DNA from: Saccoglossus kowalevskii
Taxonomy: Eukaryota > Hemichordata > Enteropneusta > Harrimaniidae
Assembly (NCBI RefSeq): GCF_000003605.2
Contig: NW_003129360.1
Location: 253,373-283,100 of the forward strand
Direction of reading: 5' to 3'
Length of the DNA: 29,728 nucleotides
Each line of letters opens with the position of its first letter. The stretch's first letter is position 1. Of this stretch, positions 2,967 through 28,840 are shown in pieces. A model generated the notes under the pieces. That model saw nothing but the letters and a program-made list of their open reading frames with translations, made no database searches and had not been told where the DNA came from. The translations under genes and the position numbers were made by a program.

Positions 2967-3159
2967 GGAATTTGTTAGTACATGTACTCCAAACATCCAA
3001 ACATATTTTAGTATAAGGCAGTAACAACTTGTCAATAATTATGGGATTATTTATAACCATAAGATTGTTGTGTGAACTTCGTTCATTAATGGAATACTGT
3101 GCGATGACGCTATGTTCAGGGCCTAACTGATTCAGACTCCTTTATTGACTATGTCTAGG

Positions 3160-4029
3160 CATGGACGTACTAGAGATGGACGCCACGGTGTTTACTCGCT
3201 TTGATGTATGTGCGTTGCCGCCACCAGCTGCAGATTACTGTTAATCCAGATCGTGTCTGCATAATTTCCTGTCCACGGGGAACGATCACGAACACGCCCG
3301 ATTATAGCTCGGTTCATCTTCGTTTTGTCCCGAACGCCCCCGACGATCTGTTTACGGTCGTCAAGAGAAAACAAAATGGCAACGAACAGGCAACAGGAAG
3401 TTTGGTTTCGGTTTGGATTTTGTTGATCCCGACATTTTAGAACTAGACGAAAATGATTTTGATATTGAAGACACTGAAACTGTCGACTCAGCCGTCCCTT
3501 AAGTGGACGAACAGCAGTATTGTTTCTCGCGAGAGCCCACCATGAATGTGAAAGCTAATGTTAAAGAAGTCCATGTTTAATATCGAATTACGGCGGCCGA
3601 ACTTTTCAGAACATTTTGAGCTTTGTGCCATCTGGAAATTTCACTCGAATTGAACATCGAATAAAAAATCGTCATCCGCTCACACCGGGTTTACTGGCAA
3701 TATTAAATTAAAATTGTTAACAAATGCAGAAGATCGGTACAAACATGCTCGTAAACTTGCCTAGAACATACAGAATTGCGTTAAACCTTCGATTTACAAC
3801 TTAACATTGCACCAGCTCACGGGCAAGGTCTGTATTTTTTTGACCCAATATAATATAAAATTTAAGATTCGAATCTTGTCGTGAAAAATCAAAACTAAGA
3901 TCGGGCGGCAACTCAGCCAAGATGAAAGTACGTCTGCCTATTCATCAATTTAAGATGAGTACAACAGAAAGACAATGCGTCTTATAAGGTGTGAATCACC
4001 ATGCAGCGTCCATCTCTAGTACGTCCATG
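3160..4029. mobile_element. 870-bp DNA transposon relic with CATGGA ends and 7-bp target duplication
   Basis: The ends are a perfect 24-bp inverted repeat (3160..3183 and 4006..4029) starting CATGGACGTACTAGAG. Weaker complementarity continues inward. Immediately outside each end is the same 7-mer, GTCTAGG (3153..3159 and 4030..4036), a clean target-site duplication. Inside, 3375..3500 has a short reading frame starting MATNRQQEVW and, in a shifted frame, an acidic stretch VDPDILELDENDFDIED. These may be decayed transposase coding sequence, but I cannot assign a family. The element is almost certainly non-autonomous now. A 7-bp duplication is unusual, since hAT and P elements usually make 8. 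Confidence 0.75.
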
Positions 4030-4051
4030 GTCTAGGGCTGTTTACTAGTAC

Positions 4052-4088
4052 CATGGAGGTAGAAAAGAGATTATTTTCTACCTCCATG
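4052..4088. mobile_element. 37-bp palindromic insertion with CATGGA ends and 7-bp target duplication
   Basis: Arms CATGGAGGTAGAAAA (4052..4066) and their exact complement (4074..4088) enclose a 7-nt loop. The 7-mer CTAGTAC flanks the palindrome on both sides (4045..4051 and 4089..4095). The ends share CATGGA with the 870-bp element whose right duplication ends 8 bp to the left. It looks like a minimal insertion: two ends and almost nothing between. Confidence 0.65.
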
Positions 4089-4129
4089 CTAGTACCAACC
4101 TACTTACTTGTCAGTGTCTGACTGTTATA

Positions 4130-4490
4130 TACAGCCCAGAACACGTCAGAATAGTAAAAAAAAGTCAGCAAATGTCAGTTGCCCGTGCCATGAGAGCCGG
4201 CCACATAACCAAAACAATCTGTGAGCCTTCGCCGCCCACAGCATCGATATGATTTTACATTGCATAGAAATGAACACTAAATGCAGCTATCCCCGGCCGT
4301 TCAGCAATCGAATCATCAATCTTCATGAGTGATGTAACTGGTATTTGCTTAGTGGTCCGTAAGTGAATGCTGTCAAGTTCGATAGTGTGTTTTGGCGTAC
4401 AGGGACGTGAACATTAGTGCTACAATTTTGGGCTTTAACATGTTCTATATTCACCCAAAACAATAACGAACTTGAAACAAAAGTAACCGC
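4130..4490 (+). repeat. Decayed large duplication, copy I
   Basis: This block resembles 5625..6330 by eye. Shared landmarks in order are GTCAGAATAGTAAAAAAA, GTTGCCCGTG, GCATAGAAATGAA, CAATCGAATCATCA, TGTCAAGTTCGA and GAACTTGAAACAAAAG. The copies differ by many changes, so the duplication is old. No coding frame is conserved between them. Confidence 0.6.
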
Positions 4491-5339
4491 AAAATGATAC
4501 AAAGTACAATGTAAATGACATATGTAATGATTCACAATTTTATAAACTGGCATGGAAATGATATGATTGCATATTTTAATACAAATACTCACTCAAAATA
4601 TTTATCATATAACCTGGACAAAAGATTTATTTATTATTTTTCCATGCCATGAGACTTTTCCCCTATCTGTGTTACTTCATATTTTAGTATAAGGTAGTAA
4701 AAATGCGTATACGTTAACTCGGATGTAACAGAAGTAAGTAAAAGTCACATCCTAGTAAGTAAAAGAACTAATGTTTTAATTGGTCGTAAAAGGGCTGGAG
4801 GAGACGACTTAACACTTACTGTCCGTCAATTACTGAGATACAAAGGGTGACAGTCGCCTGACTCAAGGTGTTGACAGGGTGTCAAATTGCGACTTTACAT
4901 ACTAGTACTCCTTGGCCGGTATGCCTTTGATATAGCTCTATAAAATTCACAATAATGAGTTTAATCCATGTGGGCATGGAAGCTGTGATGTTTTTCAATA
5001 AAGAAAACTTACTACGAACACATGTGTATATGTGCTATTTATCCGTTTTCAACGCACGAACTTCCCCTCGCGAACCCTGATACGTCGCGTTTTATGTTTG
5101 GATCCCCTCACCCACGATTTAATAAAATTAAGAAATTTCAATATAATATTTCCATCACTGACAATGATGGGTGTATTTTACGGTTATTGTTTGTTACGAA
5201 AATATTTGTTCACTATTTTATCAAATGCTTTTGTAATTCCCATCACCAAATATATATAATGCACATCATGTTACTACCGGTAATCCAAAATCACTCTCGA
5301 TAATTTTGTTTACTCTGTGTGTGTACTACGGTTGCATTT

Positions 5340-5540
5340 GAAGTTTTTATCATTTTAATGGTGTACATATTATACCGGTAGTACATAAAGATACACTTTA
5401 CAAAAATACCCATGATATATTAATTATATAATCCATTATACAACCTGGACAAAAGAAATTCTTATTTTTTCTTGATATAATGATAACATGTTACTTTATG
5501 TGGAAATCCTTGTAAATGGGATTTAAAAAAAGGGATTGTC
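5340..5540 (+). repeat. Relic of the 2215..2966 repeat family
   Basis: AACCTGGACAAAAGA and the following ATAATGATAACATGTTACTT match the left parts of the 2215 repeat, and also 4600..4700, with many substitutions. Similarity upstream at 5140..5280 matches 2055..2160. It is an old diverged copy. Confidence 0.5.
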
Positions 5541-5624
5541 ACTTGCCCATTAACGCTGTAAATTGATGCTACCTTCAGGTCCTACCTGTTATCCAGAGTC
5601 TCATGTGTACTATGCGCCGAATCG

Positions 5625-6330
5625 TTTACTTATCAGTGTAAAATTTGACCGAGAAAAAGTCGGAATAGTAAAAAAATAAATAAATTAAGTTGCCCGTGTC
5701 ACAATTGCATAAAATCACAATTGCATAGAAATGAAGAATACACCTATTCCGGCCATCGGACCATCAATCGAATCATCAGTCTTCATGATTGATTTAACTG
5801 CTATTTCCATTTATATGGTTAGTTGTCAGAGACTAAATGTTGTCAAGTTCGAGAGCGTGTTTTTACTTTAGGCGACGTCAACTTTATCGATTACATCACA
5901 GTCCCTCAACACTGTGATTACACATGGAACTATAAACCATAGTTTCGTTATTCTTCCTGGGGTTTATAGTTCCATGGATTACATTATTTTATTTACTTAT
6001 TGACTCTTACACAATCCCCGGAGGCAAAGAAAATGGTCACAAAGTACAAGGAGAAAAATATTTATAAAAACAAAACAGAAACACAATATACTAAATAACA
6101 AATACAATCACTAAATTACTAAATAATACAAAATCTCTAACATACTAACTAATATATTAATATTAAAGACGCATTGAAAAGGAAGTGCCATTGTAAAAAT
6201 TCAGAGAGTAGAGGACTTTTTATACTGGAGACGTTCCAGTGCGGATCAAAATTCTTTATTTGAAAAGGACATGTTCTATATATTCACCAAAATAACAACG
6301 TTGCCATGTTTCTATGCATACAACGAACTT
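5625..6330 (+). repeat. Decayed large duplication, copy II, interrupted by insertion
   Basis: This is the counterpart of 4130..4490 with the same landmark order. The stretch from about 5885 to 6260 has no counterpart in copy I and includes the palindrome at 5923..5976. Following that is TTATTTTATTTACTTATTG, which read on the - strand resembles the A/T-rich tail of a retroposon. Similarity resumes at ACATGTTCTATAT near 6268. Confidence 0.55.
5923..5976. mobile_element. 54-bp palindromic insertion with CATGGA ends and 7-bp target duplication
   Basis: Arms CATGGAACTATAAACC (5923..5938) and their exact complement (5961..5976) enclose a 22-nt spacer. GATTACA flanks both sides directly (5916..5922 and 5977..5983). 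Terminal hexamer and duplication length match the insertions at 3160 and 4052. Confidence 0.65.
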
Positions 6331-6914: not shown

Positions 6915-7325
6915 AGAACTTTTGGGACGGCGAGCGCAATTTAATGCGAGTGAATTTCTCTACTAATTTCCCTAGTTGTATGCGGTGTCCAATATGGCGA
7001 CCAAAGGCAAAAACAGTGTTATGCAAACTAGCTTTAGTTGAAAATTTGAGTTTTCTCGACAACAGGTACGTGCAATTGAACCAAAATGTTATCGGCAAGT
7101 AACAGCGACAGCCACTAAAACGTTATTGAAGGCAAATAAACACGTCAGGCAAAATAGACTGTTTCGAGTCGTGGCGTAAACTGGAGGCACATATCATGTT
7201 GACGCTTGAGGTGAATGGAAATCAGTTGATTTGAGGGTGTCACAATAAGCGAGGGAGCAAATCGTGTTTATGCTACGAAAAAATGCAGACCTTGAAACGT
7301 ACTTTTTGGACTTTAGTACTACGTC

Positions 7326-7655
7326 ATTTTTGTTTGATTACCTAAGGTTTTTAGGTTCATGTGATGCAAGTTACAGAGCACATACCAAAGCAGCTATCCC
7401 TCAGTAAATAATGAAGCAAAGGAATTTTAGATGTCGAAATCGCGAAATTCGTCCCTTTTACGCAAACTGGGAAGTTCGTATTACTAAACGAAGTACAGGA
7501 CGACGAAGCTTAGATATCCAAGAACCAACACATACCAAAAATTTATCTCAAAAGTGAATATTCGTGGTGTATTTTATCTCTAACCGGACCGGAAGTGAGA
7601 ATTTGTCAGTAATCTAAATATCCAAATATATTTTAGTATAAGGTAGTAATAACAT
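7326..7655 (+). repeat. Dispersed repeat, copy C
   Basis: It matches copies A and B at 2215..2966 from TTTGATTACCTA through CCAACACATACCAAAAAT to CGGACCGGAAGTG. It continues with copy B to TATTTTAGTATAAGG. The left part of the unit is missing. Confidence 0.8.
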
Positions 7656-8429
7656 TACATTAGTGGGCAAAGACTATAAATCATATCCATGCCCCTAGAC
7701 ATAGCTACATCCGATGTCATCATTTTGCCAATGCCATTCTTGCAATTTCATTATTGCTGGCTGCATAGATCAGACTATTAATGTACAAGTATTTACACAT
7801 ATCGACCTTATTTTGGTTTTAGATGCTATTTTATTGAGATGCATAGTGACAACGGTGGCCGTGAAGGACCGGTAGGTTATAGGTAATTGTTACTAGTCGC
7901 ACCGTGCATGTGCACATCACACAAATCATATGAGTTCACAGGCCATAGGTCCAGTAAATCGCTTTCATCATTTATGTACGATGGAATATTTGCCGATTTA
8001 TTTTTGGCCATTAGATTCCCTGATTCATGACATCATGTGCCAATAAATCCTGAAAATTGGCTTTGCTAAGCGATGAGTCGTTTAGTTCAAAACACTGAAT
8101 GATCATAGCAGTCCTCAGTTATGCGTTTAGGAATGACCTGGTGATCCAAAATTGACCTCGCATGAAAATACTGCCGCCTACGGCGAGTCCCGGGATCATT
8201 GCGTCCAGGAGAATGCGTATCAAATATCTAATGCGCAATAAACAACTTCGTGAAAAATGAAATCAACATAGAACCCACCAGACTCGCAACACAGTAGCCT
8301 CGAAAATTAAATTGAGGCAACCAAAGTTGAGATATCCAAAATTACTACCAATAAAACCCAAACAAAACATGAATTCTGCCGAATGAGCAGCAATAAATAG
8401 ACTACATCATTTAATACACAATTGTAATA
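7656..8429. other. Intergenic DNA, nothing recognised
   Basis: No repeat, conserved frame or RNA gene was recognised between the dispersed repeat and the Penelope-like relic. Confidence 0.5.
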
Positions 8430-20229: not shown

Positions 20230-20590
20230 TCGCACATGGAGTCACCTAGAATATAACTAGATGGTTCATCTAAAAATAGGACTGATGTGACAACGACAAA
20301 GGGGAAACCTACCAGCTGTAAATACCACAAGCCAGAGTTACACTAAAACAGCAGGGTTATGAGCTGCAATTAACAATGACAATAATACAAAATTCATTTA
20401 AATAAAAAATCTATATTCAGTGTTTTTTCATTCATATCACATGCAAATAAGGCAAATGTACTCTTCAAAATGTCTTCTTATTGCACTCCCGACCAATTCC
20501 CATATGGAGTGGGGATTCCAGTTTCTAGTTTCACTTGGATCACTGTATGTCAGTTGCACTCAAGGTTAAATTCAGGCCCAATGATTAACT
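20230..20590. other. Short unassigned spacer between two repeat arrays
   Basis: No gene or repeat unit was recognised. Confidence 0.4.
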
Positions 20591-21420
20591 AGCAGCCTGT
20601 CGGCTGAAATGGCTCCACTGTTATCAATGCACGTTTCAATTAAAGAACTGAAGATATCATCAGAAAATGAACAATATGTACAGTATTAAAGCAATTGGAC
20701 TTGCTGTTTTCCCAAAAAAATTCGAAAATATAACTTTCTATCAAAAATATTCATTAAAATTAGATAATCGAAGAACAAAATCATCACAGAATGAACAAAT
20801 CTGAGAGAGGTCTACCTGTAGTACCTATGTAGTATATATAATATCAAAGCAAATCGACTTGCGGTTTTTAACAAGATGTCGAAATTATCACTTTTTACCA
20901 AAAATATTCATGAAAATTAGAGAATTTAAGATATCGAAAAGAACAAATCTGAGTGAGGTCCACATGTAGTACCTATATATGTAATATCAAAGCAATTGGA
21001 CTTGCGATTTTTAACAAAAAGTCGAAAATATCACTTTTTACCAAAAATGACAAAAATATTCATCAAATTAGAGAAATGAAGATATAACAAAATGAACAAA
21101 TCTGAGAGAGGTCTACCCAAGGTACCTACATACCAAGTATCAAAGCATTTGGGCTTGCGGTTTTCAAGAAAAAGTCGAAAATAGCATTTTGGACCAAAAA
21201 TAACAAAAATATTCACTATAAATAAAACAATTGAACATATCCACACGAAATGAACAAATCTGAGAGAGAACCACCCAAAGTACCTTCCTAGAAAGTTTCA
21301 CAGCTATACAGTTTGTAGTTCTTAAGAAGAAGTCGAGAATGTAAAGTTGATGACGACAACGATGCCGAAGGACGCCGACAGACAATCAGTAATACTATAA
21401 AGCTCAGCTCGACTTTGTCT
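20591..21420 (+). repeat. Tandem-core element H1, copy A
   Basis: The head AGCAGCCTGTCGGCTG is a small hairpin, followed by ATGGCTCCACTGTTATC. The core has units opening GAACAAATCTGAG at 20793, 20941, 21094 and 21252 (spacing 148 to 158 bp), each with TTGCGGTTTT and TCACTTTTTACCAAAAAT variants. The tail has GACGACAACG and GCCGACAGACAATC, then AGCTCAGCTCGACTTTGTC. The head and tail match those of copies B and C. Confidence 0.75.
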
Positions 21421-21480: not shown

Positions 21481-22446
21481 AACAAGTCATGTATGGCACA
21501 GTCCCCATTAGTTATCAAATTTAAGATATATAGTTTTGTTATAGTGATATAGTTGGAACATAAACATGTCAGAAATATGGATCCAGAAGCTGATGCTTGA
21601 TTATGATTTTTTAACATTAAAATGATTGTAATTCTTTCATCTGATCGTCAAACAAGTACTTGGTGCATTGAATAAAACAAAATGGCTATCAGTTGGCCAT
21701 TCTGAATCTGATCCGAAAAACAAAATGAAGTGCATCAGGGACCCATAATGTCTAATGTATGTACCAAGTTTGAACAAATCCATCAATAAAAGACCAAAAT
21801 CTGGTTCTGGAATGCAAGAAATGTTTGATTTTGATGATTTTTCAGCACAAAAAATAGCCATCATTCGGCCATCTTGAAACAGATTGTGAAACATAATGTA
21901 CATATGTATAATAATATTGTGTATGATCAGAGGTACATTACTACATTGGGGTTTGCAACTACGGTGACATGATACCAAGATCCCATTTCAATGTTGCTCT
22001 CGCATAAGCGTTCCTCAGAAAAATGCGAATGCGCATGCTCGAGGTAACTAGGATACTGAGATGTCCAGGTGGATGAAAATAGTTGCTCACGATATGACGG
22101 ATTACGATAACTATATTTTCTGTTCATTTTCGATGTATTACATTTTTTCACTATGAATGTGGTAATACATGTTTTATTGATTATTACAAACTGCTTATTT
22201 CATGTCAGAAGGTCGTAGCATCAGTCTCGCTATCTACGCGATGAGATTTGAATGGGATCTTGACATGATGCCACCATACAGTACTATACGCGTTGCAAAC
22301 CCCAAGTAATGTACCTCTGGTATGATACATGTGTGAAGTATGAATGTTATTCGTCCAGGCATATCTAAGATACAGGTTTGAACGCACAGATTCATGCACA
22401 GAGGTCAATCCATAAGTCCCCGTTTTCGGACTGGTGTCGCAGTTCA
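21481..22446 (+). repeat. Tandem-core element H2, copy 1, split by a hAT-like MITE
   Basis: The head is CACAGTCCCCATTAGTTATC. Inside are recurrent units with AAAATGGCTATCAGTTGGCC-type mini-palindromes and CCAAGTTTGAACAAA. The tail has GAGGTCAATCCATAAGTC, then a hairpin (AGTCCCCG / CGGACT). 21928..22319 is a later insertion. Without it the two parts align continuously with 25840..25985. Confidence 0.75.
21928..22319. mobile_element. hAT-like MITE nested in repeat H2
   Basis: The 392-bp element has ends CAGAGGTACATTAC and, reversed, the same 14 bases; complementarity continues at GGGGTTTGCAAC and AAGATCCCATT. GTATGAT flanks it on both sides (21921..21927 and 22320..22326). The related repeat copy has the unoccupied site, a single GTATGAT at 25861..25867. 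CAGAGG ends are typical of hAT elements, which usually duplicate 8 bp. Here 7 bp are exact. It has no transposase. Confidence 0.85.
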
Positions 22447-22571: not shown

Positions 22572-22798
22572 TCAGCATTTACCAATATGTAACCTAAGCA
22601 CACCATTCACATGCAGCTCTTTGAGCTTTAGAAACTCAGATGGCATTGAATGTTTCACTACTACTATCCATGTCTTGGGTGTGTCCTCTGCGTAGTGGTA
22701 TGGTACATAGTTACCATTTACATCAGTGGTAAACGGCCAGAATCCAAAAAGGTGGATTTCCTCACAGTATGTGAGTGCTAGATTGAACATCAGCATTC
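22572..22798 (-). CDS. Sialyltransferase last exon: motifs S, III and VS
   Basis: The acceptor is TTTTGCTCCTCAG|GAATG. It encodes [30 protein letters not shown] and HSMPSEF, then [14 protein letters not shown] and TGA at 22574..22572. The motif S cysteine and the VS His and Glu are present. Confidence 0.95.
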
Positions 22799-25700
22799 CT
22801 GAGGAGCAAAAAATGTCATTAAAACAATATTGACAGCTGGTGTTTGGTTGAATATTATTATCCATGCTGTCTACTTTGACCTAGCATTTGATTGGCTAAA
22901 AGGGTGGACCATTAAAAACCTTAGGAATAATTTAAAAAAAAAAATTTGATTGTATACATTTCCAATATTGGTTTTGACTGGCATCCAGGACTAGCGAAAC
23001 AAGTTTGTCTGAGTTTGTCTGGCATTTACAATAATGATATTGGGCAATTTTAACAAGCAGTCTCTCGGCTGAGATAGCTCTGTTGTCAGCAATGCACATT
23101 TCGATTAAAGAATTGTAAATATCATTAGAAAATTAACAAATCTGAGAGAGGTTCGCCTGAGATACATATATGTATAACATCAAAGCAATCAGATGCAGTT
23201 ATAACAAGAAGTGGGAAAATATCATTTTTTACCAAAAATTACAAAAATATTCATCAAAATTAGAGAATTGAAAATATCATCATGAAATGAGCAAATTGAG
23301 GTACCTATATGTATAACATCAAAGCATGATTGCTTGTAGTTTTTTAAAAAGTCGAAAAAGTAAAAAGTTGATTTGGACAATGATGGACGATCACTCGTAT
23401 GATAAGCTCCTCATGACAAAGTCGACAGCAGAGCTAAATAATTGAATTTCATGTATACAATGTATGTGGAATGTACATTTTTGTTCCCACATTATTGGAA
23501 GTTTTGATCGTTTCTACTCGTGACCTATATAAAATTCAAGGATCTGTATGCACAAAACTTACCTGTTGTTACCGATACAAATCGCTTACTTTCCCAAAAG
23601 TGTTCAATTGCAGACAAGTAATTTTTTTCAAATTCCATATCAATCAACTTAGTATTCTTATGCACATATGATACAAACTCATCTTCTGCTGGTCCAGAAA
23701 ACATTAGGTAACCATTATATACATGCAGATCCTTCTTAAATGCATCCAAATTGTTGTGGTACCTATACGAAAATATCACCGATACATGGATGAACAATTA
23801 ATGATTTCATTAAGGTCATCAATCTTTGAATGCATTACCTAACTCAATTTTATTTGAATGCAGTTGTTAATTACAAAAAAAACTTGGTACCCACCACTAT
23901 GCTACCATATTTTAGCCATGAATTAATTGTTGTTTTTCGGCAATCTACGCCTTCATAAGTCAGTATACGAAGAAATGCTAACACAAACTTTGTTTTCAGA
24001 GCAAAACAATAACGCAGAGTATGCCCTGTACTTTAGTAATATTGAATATAAAATCACTTTATTTTCGCTTGGAATTAATTTTGGCTACTTTTGCTTAAGA
24101 GTAATTCAGTGAAAATAAAATCCAGTGAATATACCTTGTTTTCTATATTTTACATGCAACTCGTCAGAAGTCAGTGAAAATAAATTCCATATAAAACATC
24201 CAAAAAGTCTTTTCAGCGAAAATTATTTCCAGCTAACAATGAAAAGAATAGTCAGATTATGTTTAAATATTGGGATAGTAGTTAGTATACAAGTTGACAC
24301 CTGGCCACAAACTATACTGATTTTTTAACTAGAAACAAACTGATATATGATAGTGTAAGTTGAAATATACGCATATACATTTGTACATATACGAGGGTCA
24401 ATACAATCGGATACTCTCAGCATAACAGCAGCAATGATGGGTGTCGCCAAATTGAAAAAACAATTCTGCCGAGTACACGTACCGAGTAACGTGACATACT
24501 GTTATTTAATGTGATTAGAATGGGTCATATGAGAACATAAAATCGGGTTGGTTATTTAAAAGCTACAATTAATTCCATCTTTTAAGTTTCAATTGTTCCT
24601 ATTTCTCACTGAATAACATTTTTTATTAGCGACACCTAGCAGCTATCTTGTTTCATACACAACACCATGGCAAAATCAAATGCAAAATGAACGACTGAAA
24701 TGAACACTTTCCTGGCACTTATGCACAAAGTAAAAAAATACTGCTCAACAATTAAAGTATCAAATCACAAATAAACACTGATTGTTTTGGGTGTGGTGAC
24801 ACGATTTACCAGGGTTGAAACTTTCTGGTATTATTGCCATAATGCATAAAGTAATAATGAATGAACATGGCAGCTACAGTTTGAAATCAAAATCTTGTTT
24901 TTTTTCGTTATTTATAATTGTATGGATTTCAAACTACACGTGTCTTTTCGCGGAACCGATATAATCACATAGAGACTTGTAACTTGAAATAAAATTTACC
25001 GACTTTACTTAAAAACATCCAATATTTTTATAGGCATAACACAGAACAGAAGTGCTTAAAACAAGCTCGAAGAAAATGCTATGACGTCACCATTGTCTCC
25101 CCACAAGCGCAACACACACTGTACACATAACTCGGGTGATTCACACCTTAGAACAATAGCGTTTCCTAACTGGGTGTTGAGGGACTGTGATAGAACACAA
25201 TGCTTGATCAACAAGCCATGCATGGCACAGTCTCTGTTAGTTATCAAATTTAAGATCTATAGTAATATAGCGTGAAACAAGTACTTGTCCATATTGAGAG
25301 ATATTGCTCTGGAACAGCATTCAAAATCAGCCATTTTGAATACATGTATATATATATAACATGATGTACAACAAATATATAAAATTTGAATATAATCAGT
25401 CAAAGCATTTAAGAGATATGGCTCTAGAAGCCCAATCATTAAAACAAAATGCCTGCCAGTCGGCCATTTTGAATCCAATCTGAAAAATAAAATGTAATGT
25501 CTAATGTATGTACCAAGTTTGAACGAGATCCTTCCATACATGCCAGAAATGCTTGATATTTGATGATATTTTAGCACAAAAATGGCCACCATTTGGCCAT
25601 TTTGAATAGGATCGTCAAACCAATATATCTGACTATGTATGACATGATGTATAATGAATATTTTCAATCTTATCTGAAAAACAAAATTATTCGCATCAAG

Positions 25701-27675
25701 GTCCCATAATGTCTAATGTATATACCAAGTTTGAACAAAATTCATCTGTAAACAGCTGAGAAATGCTTGATTTTTATGAATTTTAGCACAAAAATGACCG
25801 CCATTTGGCCATCTTGAATCAGATCGTGAAACAAATTGATGTGCATACGTATAATATCATGTATGATATATGTGTGAAGTTTGATTGTGATTGGTCCAGG
25901 CATTTATAAGATACAGGTCCGAACACACGTACACACACAGACACACTGAGGTCAAAACATAAGTCTCCGTTTCCGGACTGTGTCAGAACGGGGAATAAAA
26001 ATCAACATACACTCTGTTGTGCCACCAGGCGTGCCTAAAAAACAGTTGATGACATGTTCAAATTTTGCAGTTTTATTTGTTTTTCATAAAAATGGCCGCC
26101 ATTTCACTAAATTTCATTGAAATCAAAAAATAATTAAAAGCAACATTTAACCCATTACATCTTGCTTGCCTTTGTACCAAATTTAAACCCAATCTGTAAA
26201 ATCATCTCTGTGAATTGAGAAGAACACTCATAAAAAAACAAAATGGCCACCAGTTGGCTATTTTGAATTGAATCACAAAAAAAATGATGTGCATCAGTAA
26301 CCCACTATGACTGATGTCAATGTCAAGTTTGAATGAAATTGGTCAAGGCATGTTTAAGAAACGGTTGATGACATGTTTGAATTTTGCGATTTTATTTGTT
26401 TTTGACGAAAATAGCCGCCATTCGGACTTAATTTCAAGAAAACGAAAAAATGACTGAAAACAACATTTAACCCATTATATCTTGCCTTTGTATAAATTTT
26501 AATCCAAATCTGTACAATAATCTCTGTAAAATGAGAACAAAATGGCCACCAGTCCGCCATTTTGATTCGAATCACGGAAAAAAATGATGTGCATCAGTAA
26601 CACACCATGACTGATGTCACTTCCAAGTTTGACTGAAATCTGTCAAAGCATGTCTGAGAAATGATGGATGACATGTCCAAATTCTTTGGGACAAAAATGG
26701 CCGCCAGTCGATCAAAGTTTAACCGAATCAAAATTACTGATGCACGAACAGACAGAACCAAAACATAAGTCCCTGTTTTGGACTACGTCTGATGGGGACT
26801 AATTACAGACGTACCACCTACAACGTCACTACCAAAACGACAGCTTGAAATACACGTCGTAACACTGATATATCAGTCAGAAATACGTCAAATCTCGGAC
26901 TACACAAACAAATTGTAGATATATCCACACACATATAAAGCCATGTGATACCTTCTATGGATCATGCTTGGATTAAAAGTGGTAAAGTTACTCTTCTTTC
27001 CAACATCGTCTGAGAAGTTACTTATGTAAGGAAGATTAGCCCTAGAAAAAAACATTAGGAATCCATTTGTCGTATCAACATATATAATAGTGGTTCTAGT
27101 ATGACCGCAACTTTGAAATAAGGTCACACTCTGTTTATTTTGTCATTAAAATGTGCAGTTAAAACAAGCTATTTAAAGCGGGGGAGTCATCACCTACGCA
27201 TGCGTCAGATGGACATAGCGTGTCATTGTTTAAAAACAAGCGTCTACCCATGAGCCTTTGCATTTTTAGAGTGTGTTGTTATCGTGGCCTGAGACTATTC
27301 CTGTGTGTGCGCAGGTGACAACCCTCTCGCTTTAATAGTTTTTGCTATGCCCCGAACTGCAGATTAAGTTTATATTTGTACTGAACATTCACCAGACACA
27401 TTATTTAATGATATCACTCAAGCAATACTGCTTGATGTATAACAATGTTGTTAACAATTATTATGCAAATTAGCCACCATCCTTGACCAAAATCCTGGAT
27501 AGAACACTGTTTTCACACTAATTGATTGTGCCTATTACACATTTACAGTCTTGAGTTACCTGAAGATATAGTCTGCTTTGTCAATTTCTTCTCCACATCC
27601 ACTGTTTTTTAGGATACCTCCATTTCCTACAACACTACATCGTCTATATTTCGAGGTATCTTCATCAAATTTGTT
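22572..27675 (-). CDS. ST8Sia-type alpha-2,8-sialyltransferase (GT29), 3' part, four exons
   Basis: Exons 27675..27560, 27041..26952, 23762..23563 and 22798..22572 join in frame to 210 residues and a TGA. All junctions are GT-AG with matching phases (2, 2, 1). The family transfers sialic acid from CMP-sialic acid to sialylated glycans in the Golgi lumen. Motif L is [18 protein letters not shown] onward to NPS. Motif S runs from VTTG to [12 protein letters not shown]. Motif III is HYAED, and motif VS is HSMPSE (His-x4-Glu). The C-terminal Cys of the ST8Sia family is kept. Odd residues are FRANLP where FRCNLP is usual, and Ala in motif III where Tyr or an aromatic is usual. About 130 to 170 N-terminal residues (tail, membrane anchor, stem) are not in view. 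All three introns carry transposon or repeat copies. Confidence 0.93.
23053..23437 (+). repeat. Tandem-core element H1, copy B, in a sialyltransferase intron
   Basis: The head TAACAAGCAGTCTCTCGGCTG is followed by TAGCTCTGTTGTCAGC. There are one to two core units. The tail is GACGATCACTCGTATGATAAG, then GTCGACAGCAGAGCTA. The head TAGCTCTG and tail CAGAGCTA are complementary. Confidence 0.8.
23563..23762 (-). CDS. Sialyltransferase exon: variable middle region
   Basis: Acceptor TTTCGTATAG|GTACCAC; donor GTAACAACAG|GTAAGT. It encodes [12 protein letters not shown], a variable stretch and [16 protein letters not shown]. The last residues start motif S. The sequence between the motifs is poorly conserved in the family, as expected. 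Confidence 0.9.
23763..25205. other. Left part of the large sialyltransferase intron, no feature recognised
   Basis: Unique-looking AT-rich sequence. Several short + frames (61 to 67 codons) have no recognisable content, and no splice-flanked extra exon was found. Confidence 0.45.
25206..26803 (+). repeat. Tandem-core element H2, long copy or two joined copies, in a sialyltransferase intron
   Basis: The head CATGGCACAGTCTCTGTTAG matches 21489 onward. Units with AAAATGGCC...GGCCATTTT mini-palindromes recur at about 25446, 25583, 25791, 26241 and 26539, with partial ones at 26092, 26408 and 26695. One tail hairpin (AGTCTCCG / CGGACT) occurs near 25965. A second (AGTCC / GGACT) at about 26769 is followed by the end CTGATGGGGACTA, complementary to the head AGTCCCCAT of copy 1. 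Two tails suggest two copies end to end. Confidence 0.7.
26952..27041 (-). CDS. Sialyltransferase exon: second part of motif L
   Basis: Acceptor TTTTTTTCTAG|GGCTAATC; donor CATAGAAG|GTATCA. It encodes, after the split Arg, [19 protein letters not shown] and then [10 protein letters not shown]. The N of ANLP, which binds the nucleotide in relatives, and DVG and NPS are kept. Position one is Ala, not Cys. Confidence 0.92.
27173..27335 (+). mobile_element. TTAA MITE, copy 5 (full length), in a sialyltransferase intron
   Basis: 163 bp between TTAA ends, the same length as copy 2. The left end is TTAAAGCGGGGGAGTCATC and the right end, reversed, is TTAAAGCGAGAGGGTTGTC. The middle carries CATAGCGTGTCATTGTTT, ACCCATGAGCCTTTGCAT and GTGTGTTGTTAT. 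Confidence 0.87.
27560..27675 (-). CDS. Sialyltransferase exon: first part of motif L
   Basis: Acceptor TTTTTTCTCAG|AACAAA; donor ATCTTCAG|GTAACT. It encodes [10 protein letters not shown], then [18 protein letters not shown] and [10 protein letters not shown], 38 codons plus two bases. It carries the invariant motif L cysteine and the GNGG nucleotide-binding turn. It is the 5'-most exon recognised. Confidence 0.93.
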
Positions 27676-27747: not shown

Positions 27748-28260
27748 TGTGTCGCATACGACTTGTTTACCACTTCCGTGTGACTGAGAATGTTCTAGAA
27801 CCGTACTGTGTCTGGGTGGAATTTTTAGAAACTGGTTGAATAGGTAATGGAACATTCTAGAAATTTGTATTAAGTTCCAGACTCATTATGTATGCTGATG
27901 TAATGGTCTATTTATAGACAGTGTGGGTATATATAGGGGAGTTGTTCAGCACTGAGATCAGATCGGAGATCTCGTTGAATTGTATTGGAGTTTAAGTATC
28001 TAGTTAGGAGTAGTGGAGTTTTACCGCGTTATTGTACTTGATGTTCGCAGAGTATAATACCAGTACCAGTTGAAACCTCATCTGTTGGCTCCGTGTTCGT
28101 ATTTTATCATCGCCGCCAGGGAAGTCTTTTTGTTACTGTTGCCATTTTGGTATTTGAACCATCACACCTGTACTATACCAATTACGGTAATATTACGTTG
28201 CGTGTGACAACATGTTATAATTACAAATACTGCTAAATCATTCTTGTTTGACATTCAACA
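27748..28260 (+). mobile_element. Isolated LTR of a Ty3/gypsy-like retrotransposon (fossil)
   Basis: About 513 bp from TGTGTCGCATAC to ATTCAACA, followed directly by TGGTGACAAC, which looks like a primer-binding site. Inside are a promoter-like TATATATAGGGG (27929..27940) and two heat-shock-element-like triplets. No matching second LTR or gag-pol region is in the window, so it is a solo or cut-off remnant. Family and exact ends are inferred from structure. Confidence 0.55.
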
Positions 28261-28302
28261 TGGTGACAACTGAATGGTTCCGGCTTCTTCAGTGGTAATA
28301 AT

Positions 28303-28840
28303 TTAACAAGCAGCCTTTCGGCTGAGATAGCTCCGCTGTTAGCAAGGCACATTTCAATTGAAAAACTGAAGATACCGTATCATTAGAAAATGAACAATAT
28401 GTATAGTATGTATAGCAATCCGACTTTCTGTTTTTAACAAGAAGTCAAAAATATCACTTTTTACCAAAAATGACAAAAATATTCACCAAAGATAGAGAAT
28501 TTTAGATATCATCACGAAATGAACAAACCTGAGAAAGGTCCACATGTAGTATCTATATATGTAATGTCAAAGCAATTGGACTTGCGGTTTTTAACAAGAA
28601 GTCAAAAATATCACTTTTTACCAAAAATTATAAAAATATTCACCAAAATTAGGGAATTGAAGATATCATCATGAAATGAACAAATCTAAGGAAGGTCTAC
28701 CCCAGGTACATACACGCCAAGTATCAAATCATTCAGGCTTGTAGTTTTCAAGAAGTCGAAAAAGTAAAACATTGACACGGACGACGACGGACAATCACTC
28801 ATATGATAAGCTCCGCTCAACAAAGTCGACAGCGGAGCTA
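28303..28840 (+). repeat. Tandem-core element H1, copy C
   Basis: The head is TTTAACAAGCAGCCTTTCGG with TAGCTCCGCTGTTAGC. Core units open GAACAAACCTGAG at about 28520 and GAACAAATCTAAG at about 28678. The tail has GACGACGACGGACAATCACT, ATATGATAAGCTCCG and GTCGACAGCGGAGCTA. TAGCTCCGCTGT at the head is the exact complement of ACAGCGGAGCTA at the tail. Confidence 0.85.

Follow-up and report, generated by a model that had tools for sequence, protein, structure and literature searches.

Short CATGGA palindromes in the genome of Saccoglossus kowalevskii: probable excision footprints of P-like transposons

Introduction

The closest described relatives of the inserts studied here belong to the P superfamily of transposons, and our comparisons draw on parts of the cited accounts. 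The P transposase of Drosophila cuts the second strand 17 nucleotides (nt) inside the terminal repeat (PMC7776569), and its end-joined excision products consist of up to 17 nt from each element end, with or without filler between them, enclosed by the two copies of the target duplication (PMC2895639). The terminal inverted repeat, quoted as the target of a guide, continues with AGGTGG after the 17-nt tail (PMC11368186). Galileo, a P-superfamily element of Drosophila, makes mostly 7-base-pair (bp) duplications with the consensus GTATTAC/GTANTAC and has a 15-bp palindromic target motif (PMC4168063). The P-MITEs (miniature inverted-repeat transposable elements) of Anopheles gambiae are short elements that share P-transposon ends and are thought to borrow their transposase (PMC1562414), and zebrafish Pdre2 / THAP9 combines CAT-type ends with a P-type transposase (PMC10983969). 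We focus here on a 29,728-nt stretch of the hemichordate Saccoglossus kowalevskii (contig NW_003129360.1, positions 253,373 to 283,100; "the window"), in which three inserts of 870, 37 and 54 bp have inverted ends starting CATGGA and perfect 7-bp flanking duplications. We take the 870-bp insert to be a resident non-autonomous element, and the 37- and 54-bp palindromes are very probably footprints that two other families of this general type left on excision, by a P-like mechanism. A literature search at the level of titles and abstract openings found no paper on genome-wide P-type footprints.

Three inserts and their families

The DNA searched comprised the window and its own genome assembly (572 Mb); L-numbers (e.g. 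L016) are labels of the genome stretches examined. A preliminary description of the window had reported the three inserts, their CATGGA ends and their duplications, and a direct check of the window confirms these to the base. The 870-bp insert (3160-4029) has exact 24-nt inverted ends and GTCTAGG on both flanks, the 37-bp insert (4052-4088) has 15-nt arms between copies of CTAGTAC, and the 54-bp insert (5923-5976) has 16-nt arms between copies of GATTACA (Table 1). That such a set is far beyond chance, as had been argued, is also borne out. Nine CATGGA/TCCATG pairs lie no more than 1000 bp apart in the window; their flanking 7-mers agree at 7/7 positions in three pairs and at 0-3 positions in the other six. 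Inserts of 26-1500 bp whose inverted ends reach 12 nt or more and whose flanks hold an exact 7-bp repeat occur four times in the window, the fourth being 21928-22319, versus 0 in every one of 200 dinucleotide shuffles, and with ends of only 6 nt the same scan gives 11 sites versus 0-6 in 100 shuffles. Short near-perfect palindromes with flanking repeats give five rows versus a mean of 0.03 in 60 shuffles, these rows being the 37-mer and the 54-mer (one listed twice) and two rows that overlap in an AT tract.

The genome-wide search that had been proposed was run family by family. The 23-nt end of the 870-bp insert has 28 matches (up to two mismatches) versus 0 for the control; at up to one mismatch, the arm CATGGAGGTAGAAAA of the 37-mer has 494 matches versus 31 for the reversed control, and the arm of the 54-mer has 361 versus 7. 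Each insert belongs to a separate transposon family with 7-bp duplications, the copies examined being mostly 0.5-0.9 kb. Sister copies of the 870-bp insert (L001, L005 and L007; 863-875 bp) have perfect 7-bp duplications in 3/3 cases. Full copies with the ends of the 37-mer (L016-L020; 740-799 bp) have exact duplications in 5/5, their inverted ends continuing as CATGGAGGTAGAAAAGAGAAGGAGTGAGGACGCTATT, and those with the ends of the 54-mer (L129-L133; 544-757 bp), which read CATGGAACTATAAACCCCAGGAAGAACAAC, have them in four of five (L131 is without). Since the inverted ends of the families extend over 24-37 nt, it does not follow that the transposase recognises little beyond CATGGA, as the preliminary description had proposed. 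Longer copies sharing the ends were also anticipated, and these exist; in the 870 family there are also a 2178-bp copy and a nested copy (L103, L104). The autonomous copy expected among them was not found, and by-eye inspection of the reading frames of L103 and L104, which were not scanned against a library, recognised no transposase.

Table 1. Positions of the three inserts and their parts in the window
Feature	Position	Strand	Basis
Target duplication GTCTAGG, left copy	3153..3159	.	window check
870-bp transposon copy, family member, no recognised transposase, exact 24-nt inverted ends CATGGACGTACTAGAGATGGACGC	3160..4029	+	window check, genome end matches, sister copies
Target duplication GTCTAGG, right copy	4030..4036	.	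window check
Target duplication CTAGTAC, left copy	4045..4051	.	window check
Probable 19-nt tail of departed element; family end CATGGAGGTAGAAAAGAGA then AGGAGTG...	4052..4070	+	full copies examined 740-799 bp
Probable 3-nt filler TTA at repair junction	4071..4073	.	comparison with family end (L053)
Probable 15-nt (trimmed) tail, other element end	4074..4088	-	comparison with family end (L053)
Target duplication CTAGTAC, right copy	4089..4095	.	window check
Target duplication GATTACA, left copy	5916..5922	.	window check
Probable 16-nt tail of departed element; family end CATGGAACTATAAACCCC then AGGAAGAACAAC	5923..5938	+	full copies examined 544-757 bp
Probable 1-nt junction filler	5939..5939	.	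comparison with family end
37 nt of other end, same family (36/37 identical), beyond tail; probable partial gap repair before joining	5940..5976	-	
Target duplication GATTACA, right copy	5977..5983	.	window check

Footprints and tail lengths

In the mechanism that we infer, a transposase would insert elements with a 7-bp target duplication and, at excision, would cut one strand at the element end and the other 17-19 nt inside the terminal repeat. Because the strands would be cut 17-19 nt apart, the chromosome would keep the duplications with single-stranded tails of that length. End joining would then fill and join the tails, giving 19 + TTA + 15 in the 37-mer, and in some cases repair synthesis would copy part of the element back before joining, giving 37 nt + 1 + 16 in the 54-mer.

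The 37-mer family offers the largest set of such forms. A two-armed search, which required both arms with 1-30 bases between them (total 31-60 bp allowed), returned 14 loci versus 0 for the control, with lengths of 32, 34, 34, 35, 35, 35, 36, 36, 37 (window), 38, 38, 38, 38 and 39 bp. As the preliminary description had predicted for the genome at large, the flanks carry exact 7-bp duplications, in 13 of the 14 loci and with every 7-mer different; the remaining locus has 6/7. In all 14 the arm covers at most 19 nt of a terminal repeat of about 37 nt, and 38 bp corresponds to 19+19. A broader collection of 81 places consists of 80 stretches from 100 exact arm matches listed in contig order, plus the window; because the search required 15 nt on one side, it misses places with two shorter tails. 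The 81 divide into 29 footprints whose repeats are exact, 18 full ends (counted with mismatches), 20 copies of a different fixed repeat and 14 places with no exact repeat. On the strand first met, the tail of the 29 footprints measures 15 nt in 5, 16 nt in 2, 17 nt in 7, 18 nt in 2, 19 nt in 12 and 20 nt in 1, and the second tail is anywhere between 0 and 19 nt long. A one-sided remnant of 19+0 is found at L030, and the joins 19+9 and 17+9 recur. The 14 places without an exact repeat keep 15-20 nt (six exactly 19), except for L079, which is a full end carrying an additional base. At L063 the tail sequence is partly doubled, as templated insertion in end joining would give. Places where CATGGAGGTAGAAAAGACAATG or similar recurs in a fixed context were treated as another repeat and set aside (20 of the 81 places; 12 rows by a stricter label). 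This dispersed repeat (L022, L024, L029, L034 and others) has CATGGAGGTAGAAAAGACAATG or similar after GTCTGAG/GCCTGAG, and perhaps spread with an old footprint or related end inside.

In the 54-mer family, 15 short stretches comprise 12 footprints with exact adjacent repeats, one with 6/7 (L125), one with the repeat displaced by one base (L137) and one full end (L143). Two-armed forms of 18+18 (L125, L126), 18+17 (L124) and 17+17 (L127, L128) are present together with trimmed ones, and the tail does not exceed 18 nt except at L141, where the match is 19 nt and the last A is assignable to one side or the other. On the minus strand the window 54-mer consists of 37 nt of element end (36 identical), 1 base and a 16-nt tail; its supposed loop is thus element sequence. 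The 105-bp form at L015, with one end extended to about 85 nt and an 18-nt tail at the other, looks similar, as does L004. All three are probably products of gap repair that was broken off and then finished by end joining. An earlier idea, that the filler was templated from the palindrome's own arm, gave a 6-nt match that 933 of 10,000 shuffled fillers equalled, and is superseded by the match to the element. A 71% in-window paralogue (4313-4416), considered as an empty site for the 54-mer, stops before the site.

The 870 family has left scars with exact repeats at L031:226-259 and L059:529-553, and shortened tails fused to interior sequence at L004, L062, L105 and L003. These six remnants have tails of 17, 17, 17, 16, 13 and 12 nt. 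Among the fused forms an identical 7-mer stands at both ends of L004, in which element interior is joined to a 17-nt tail, and of L105, and not of L003 (L062 was not traced). The 12-row listing of this family's ends further contains full ends with small changes in four rows (L103, L104 twice and L106), the second L031 arm, and one match that is probably due to chance (L113).

Target sites and empty sites

Twenty sites of the 37-mer family, elements and footprints together, share the palindromic motif TnnGTnnnACnnA. T stands at -2 in 34 of the 40 half-sites, and the GT...AC score has z=8.6, i.e. 8.6 standard errors above background. The motif was repeated on 43 rows, two of which are chance pairings (L024, 76 bp; L053, 66 bp). 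A palindromic motif centred on the duplication is seen in the 37-mer family only.

Empty sites are available for two other inserts. At L024:1133-1168 a perfect 36-bp palindrome, CTCAGACTAGTAATACAA followed by TTGTATTACTAGTCTGAG, lies with the duplication ATGTACC inside a dispersed repeat; when its two flanks are joined, 18 other examined copies align with them across the site. Ten of these were aligned base by base: four keep one ATGTACC (L022, L034, L075 and L101) and six differ within it, L101 being identical to the L024 flanks over 89 bases with the palindrome missing. In the window itself, a 392-bp insert (21928-22319 within 21921-22326) has 15-nt ends CAGAGGTACATTACT and the duplication GTATGAT, and an unoccupied paralogue at about 25759-25984 has a single GTATGAT. 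Since the empty sites keep one 7-mer, 7-bp duplication by insertion is established for these two inserts, and not directly for the three CATGGA inserts.

Forms with other ends were also met. A scan of 140,344 bases (L001-L062 without duplicates, plus the window; arms of at least 6 nt, exact 7-bp repeats) gave 30 sites after simple AT repeats were dropped, most of them sites chosen on purpose, and shuffles gave one site in ten rounds. Incidental forms include a 34-bp one in L027, CAGGGAGCTGTAATGAG joined to CTCATTACAGCTCCCTG (17+17), and a 31-bp one in L003. At L074 a CAGGG footprint stands beside a CATGGAGG footprint of a different family; they have the 7-mer GTATAAC in common, but GTATAAT at the far end, as if a single target had served two transposons.

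Origin of the palindromes

The preliminary description saw in the 37- and 54-bp palindromes insertions that a transposase, needing little beyond CATGGA, had itself moved. That the inserts are transposon-related stands; the two short ones look like excision remnants of two families and the 870-bp insert like a member of a third. It would speak for self-mobile palindromes that many loci carry near-identical 32-39-bp forms, each with its own flanking 7-mer, and that one 36-bp form and one 35-bp form each recur at two loci. Such units should be identical throughout, interior included, but there are 12 different interiors among the 14 two-armed loci, and these, together with one-sided remnants such as 19+0 and 19+9, vary as end joining does. 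The lengths are capped at twice the tail and the filler of the 54-mer comes from inside an element. We thus reject this explanation as very improbable. Even less credible, in our judgement, is replication slippage that deletes the interior of palindromic elements with no transposase involved. Inverted repeats are indeed deletion-prone, but terminal repeats of 24-37 nt would then leave arms of many lengths; instead, the arms stop at about 17, 18 or 19 nt according to family.

With their 7-bp duplications and palindromic target, the excision footprints are consistent with the P superfamily, which we regard as the most likely assignment. The duplications (7 or 8 bp would be expected) are exact in 13 of 14 two-armed footprints, in 5/5 of L016-L020 and in 4/5 of L129-L133; the footprints of the three families, with ceilings of about 19, 18 and 17 nt, point to a long staggered cut leaving donor tails of about 17 nt; the target motif of the 37-mer family is centred on the duplication; and the ends of all three begin with CAT. 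The hAT superfamily makes 8-bp duplications and has footprints confined to the flanks, which the 7-bp duplications and the terminal remnants of up to 19 nt do not match. The preliminary description had seen no fit of a 7-bp duplication with the common 8-bp, TTAA, TA or 3-bp classes; it does fit a known class, since Galileo makes mostly 7-bp ones (PMC4168063). As far as the cited accounts go, the footprint layout (duplication, tail, optional filler, tail, duplication) and ends starting CATG are as in Drosophila P, which differs in its 8-bp duplications, single tail length and identified, autonomous element, whereas the source transposase was not found here. Galileo shares the 7-bp duplications and palindromic target; unlike its long terminal repeats, the ends here are 24-37 nt, and the motif (TnnGTnnnACnnA) differs. 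The P-MITEs are likewise short elements, with 8-bp duplications and no footprints described in the part of the account used, and Pdre2 / THAP9 has 13-nt ends (CATA in Pdre2) and 8-bp duplications. The palindromes could alternatively be footprints of a different, undescribed superfamily that makes 7-bp duplications and cuts 17-19 nt inside, given that no transposase is tied to these ends and that tails of 18 and 19 nt depart from the 17-nt tail described for P. We consider this unlikely, as duplications of 7/8 bp, ends of the CAT type, a palindromic target and long tails are all features of the P superfamily, and this genome contains P-type transposase domains. PF21787, an RNase H domain of P-type transposases, has 13 genome matches (best E 3.4e-26; two may be one gene), among them one open frame of 610 amino acids. 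End sequences to seek in a candidate autonomous partner are CATGGAGGTAGAAAAGAGAAGG or CATGGAACTATAAACCCCAGG.

Several points nevertheless weigh against excision by a P-like transposase as we describe it. Around the PF21787 matches we found no autonomous element that has these ends: in three transposase regions of 8.4-9.4 kb, no inverted ends flanked by a 7-bp repeat were convincing, and the remaining matches were examined to about 1.5 kb on each side only. PF12017 has 0 genome matches, but its control also gave 0. A full element and a footprint at one and the same locus were not seen in the DNA examined, no genome-wide search for such a pair having been made. An exact duplication was not found nearby at 14 of the 81 places, although at L026 and L074 6/7 flanking bases are equal, and the 80 stretches were taken from the start of the contig order and not sampled at random. 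The fall-off after 19 nt comes from one family, that after 18 nt from 14 loci and that after 17 nt from six remnants. Finally, the window target sites of the 870- and 54-bp inserts score weakly on the motif of the 37-mer family (2% and 14% of random sites equal them), and the 54-bp site does not fit it.

Other features of the window

At 28204-28269, exact 7-bp flanks GTGACAA enclose 52 bp that begin with CATGTT and have 6-nt arms; this is possibly another footprint and possibly chance. The window also contains exons of alpha-tubulin (between 10861 and 13607), one exon of a sialyltransferase (22575-22880), a 378-bp tandem duplication with a third, diverged copy (2215-2966 and 7312-7662) and several blocks of tandem repeat units of about 153-158 bp (20585-21340, 23050-23300 and 28303-28770). 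An Rfam search gave 0 matches. Viral contigs scanned with the 24-nt end gave 0 matches, in a set that may lack records belonging to the genome of the window.

Implications

The tails may also tell us how the second cut is placed. They end right before AGGA in two families (19 nt then AGGAG, 18 nt then AGGAAG), as in Drosophila before AGG, and the cut may thus follow a sequence mark; the 870 family departs from the pattern with 17 nt then TGGACG. From this small sample we suggest, tentatively, that the tail may not be a fixed 17 nt and may instead be about 17, 18 or 19 nt by family, that the second-strand cut might be set by a short sequence mark and not by a fixed distance, and that the genome might hold a record of perhaps thousands of excision repairs, outnumbering the resident elements. 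If tail length does vary by family and follow a sequence mark, the 17-nt cut of P would be one case of a testable rule. For annotation, very short palindromes with target duplications call for caution, as they can be scars and not mobile units. The footprints offer a readable record, from a single assembly, of the way in which an unstudied animal's transposase probably cuts and its germ line joins the breaks.

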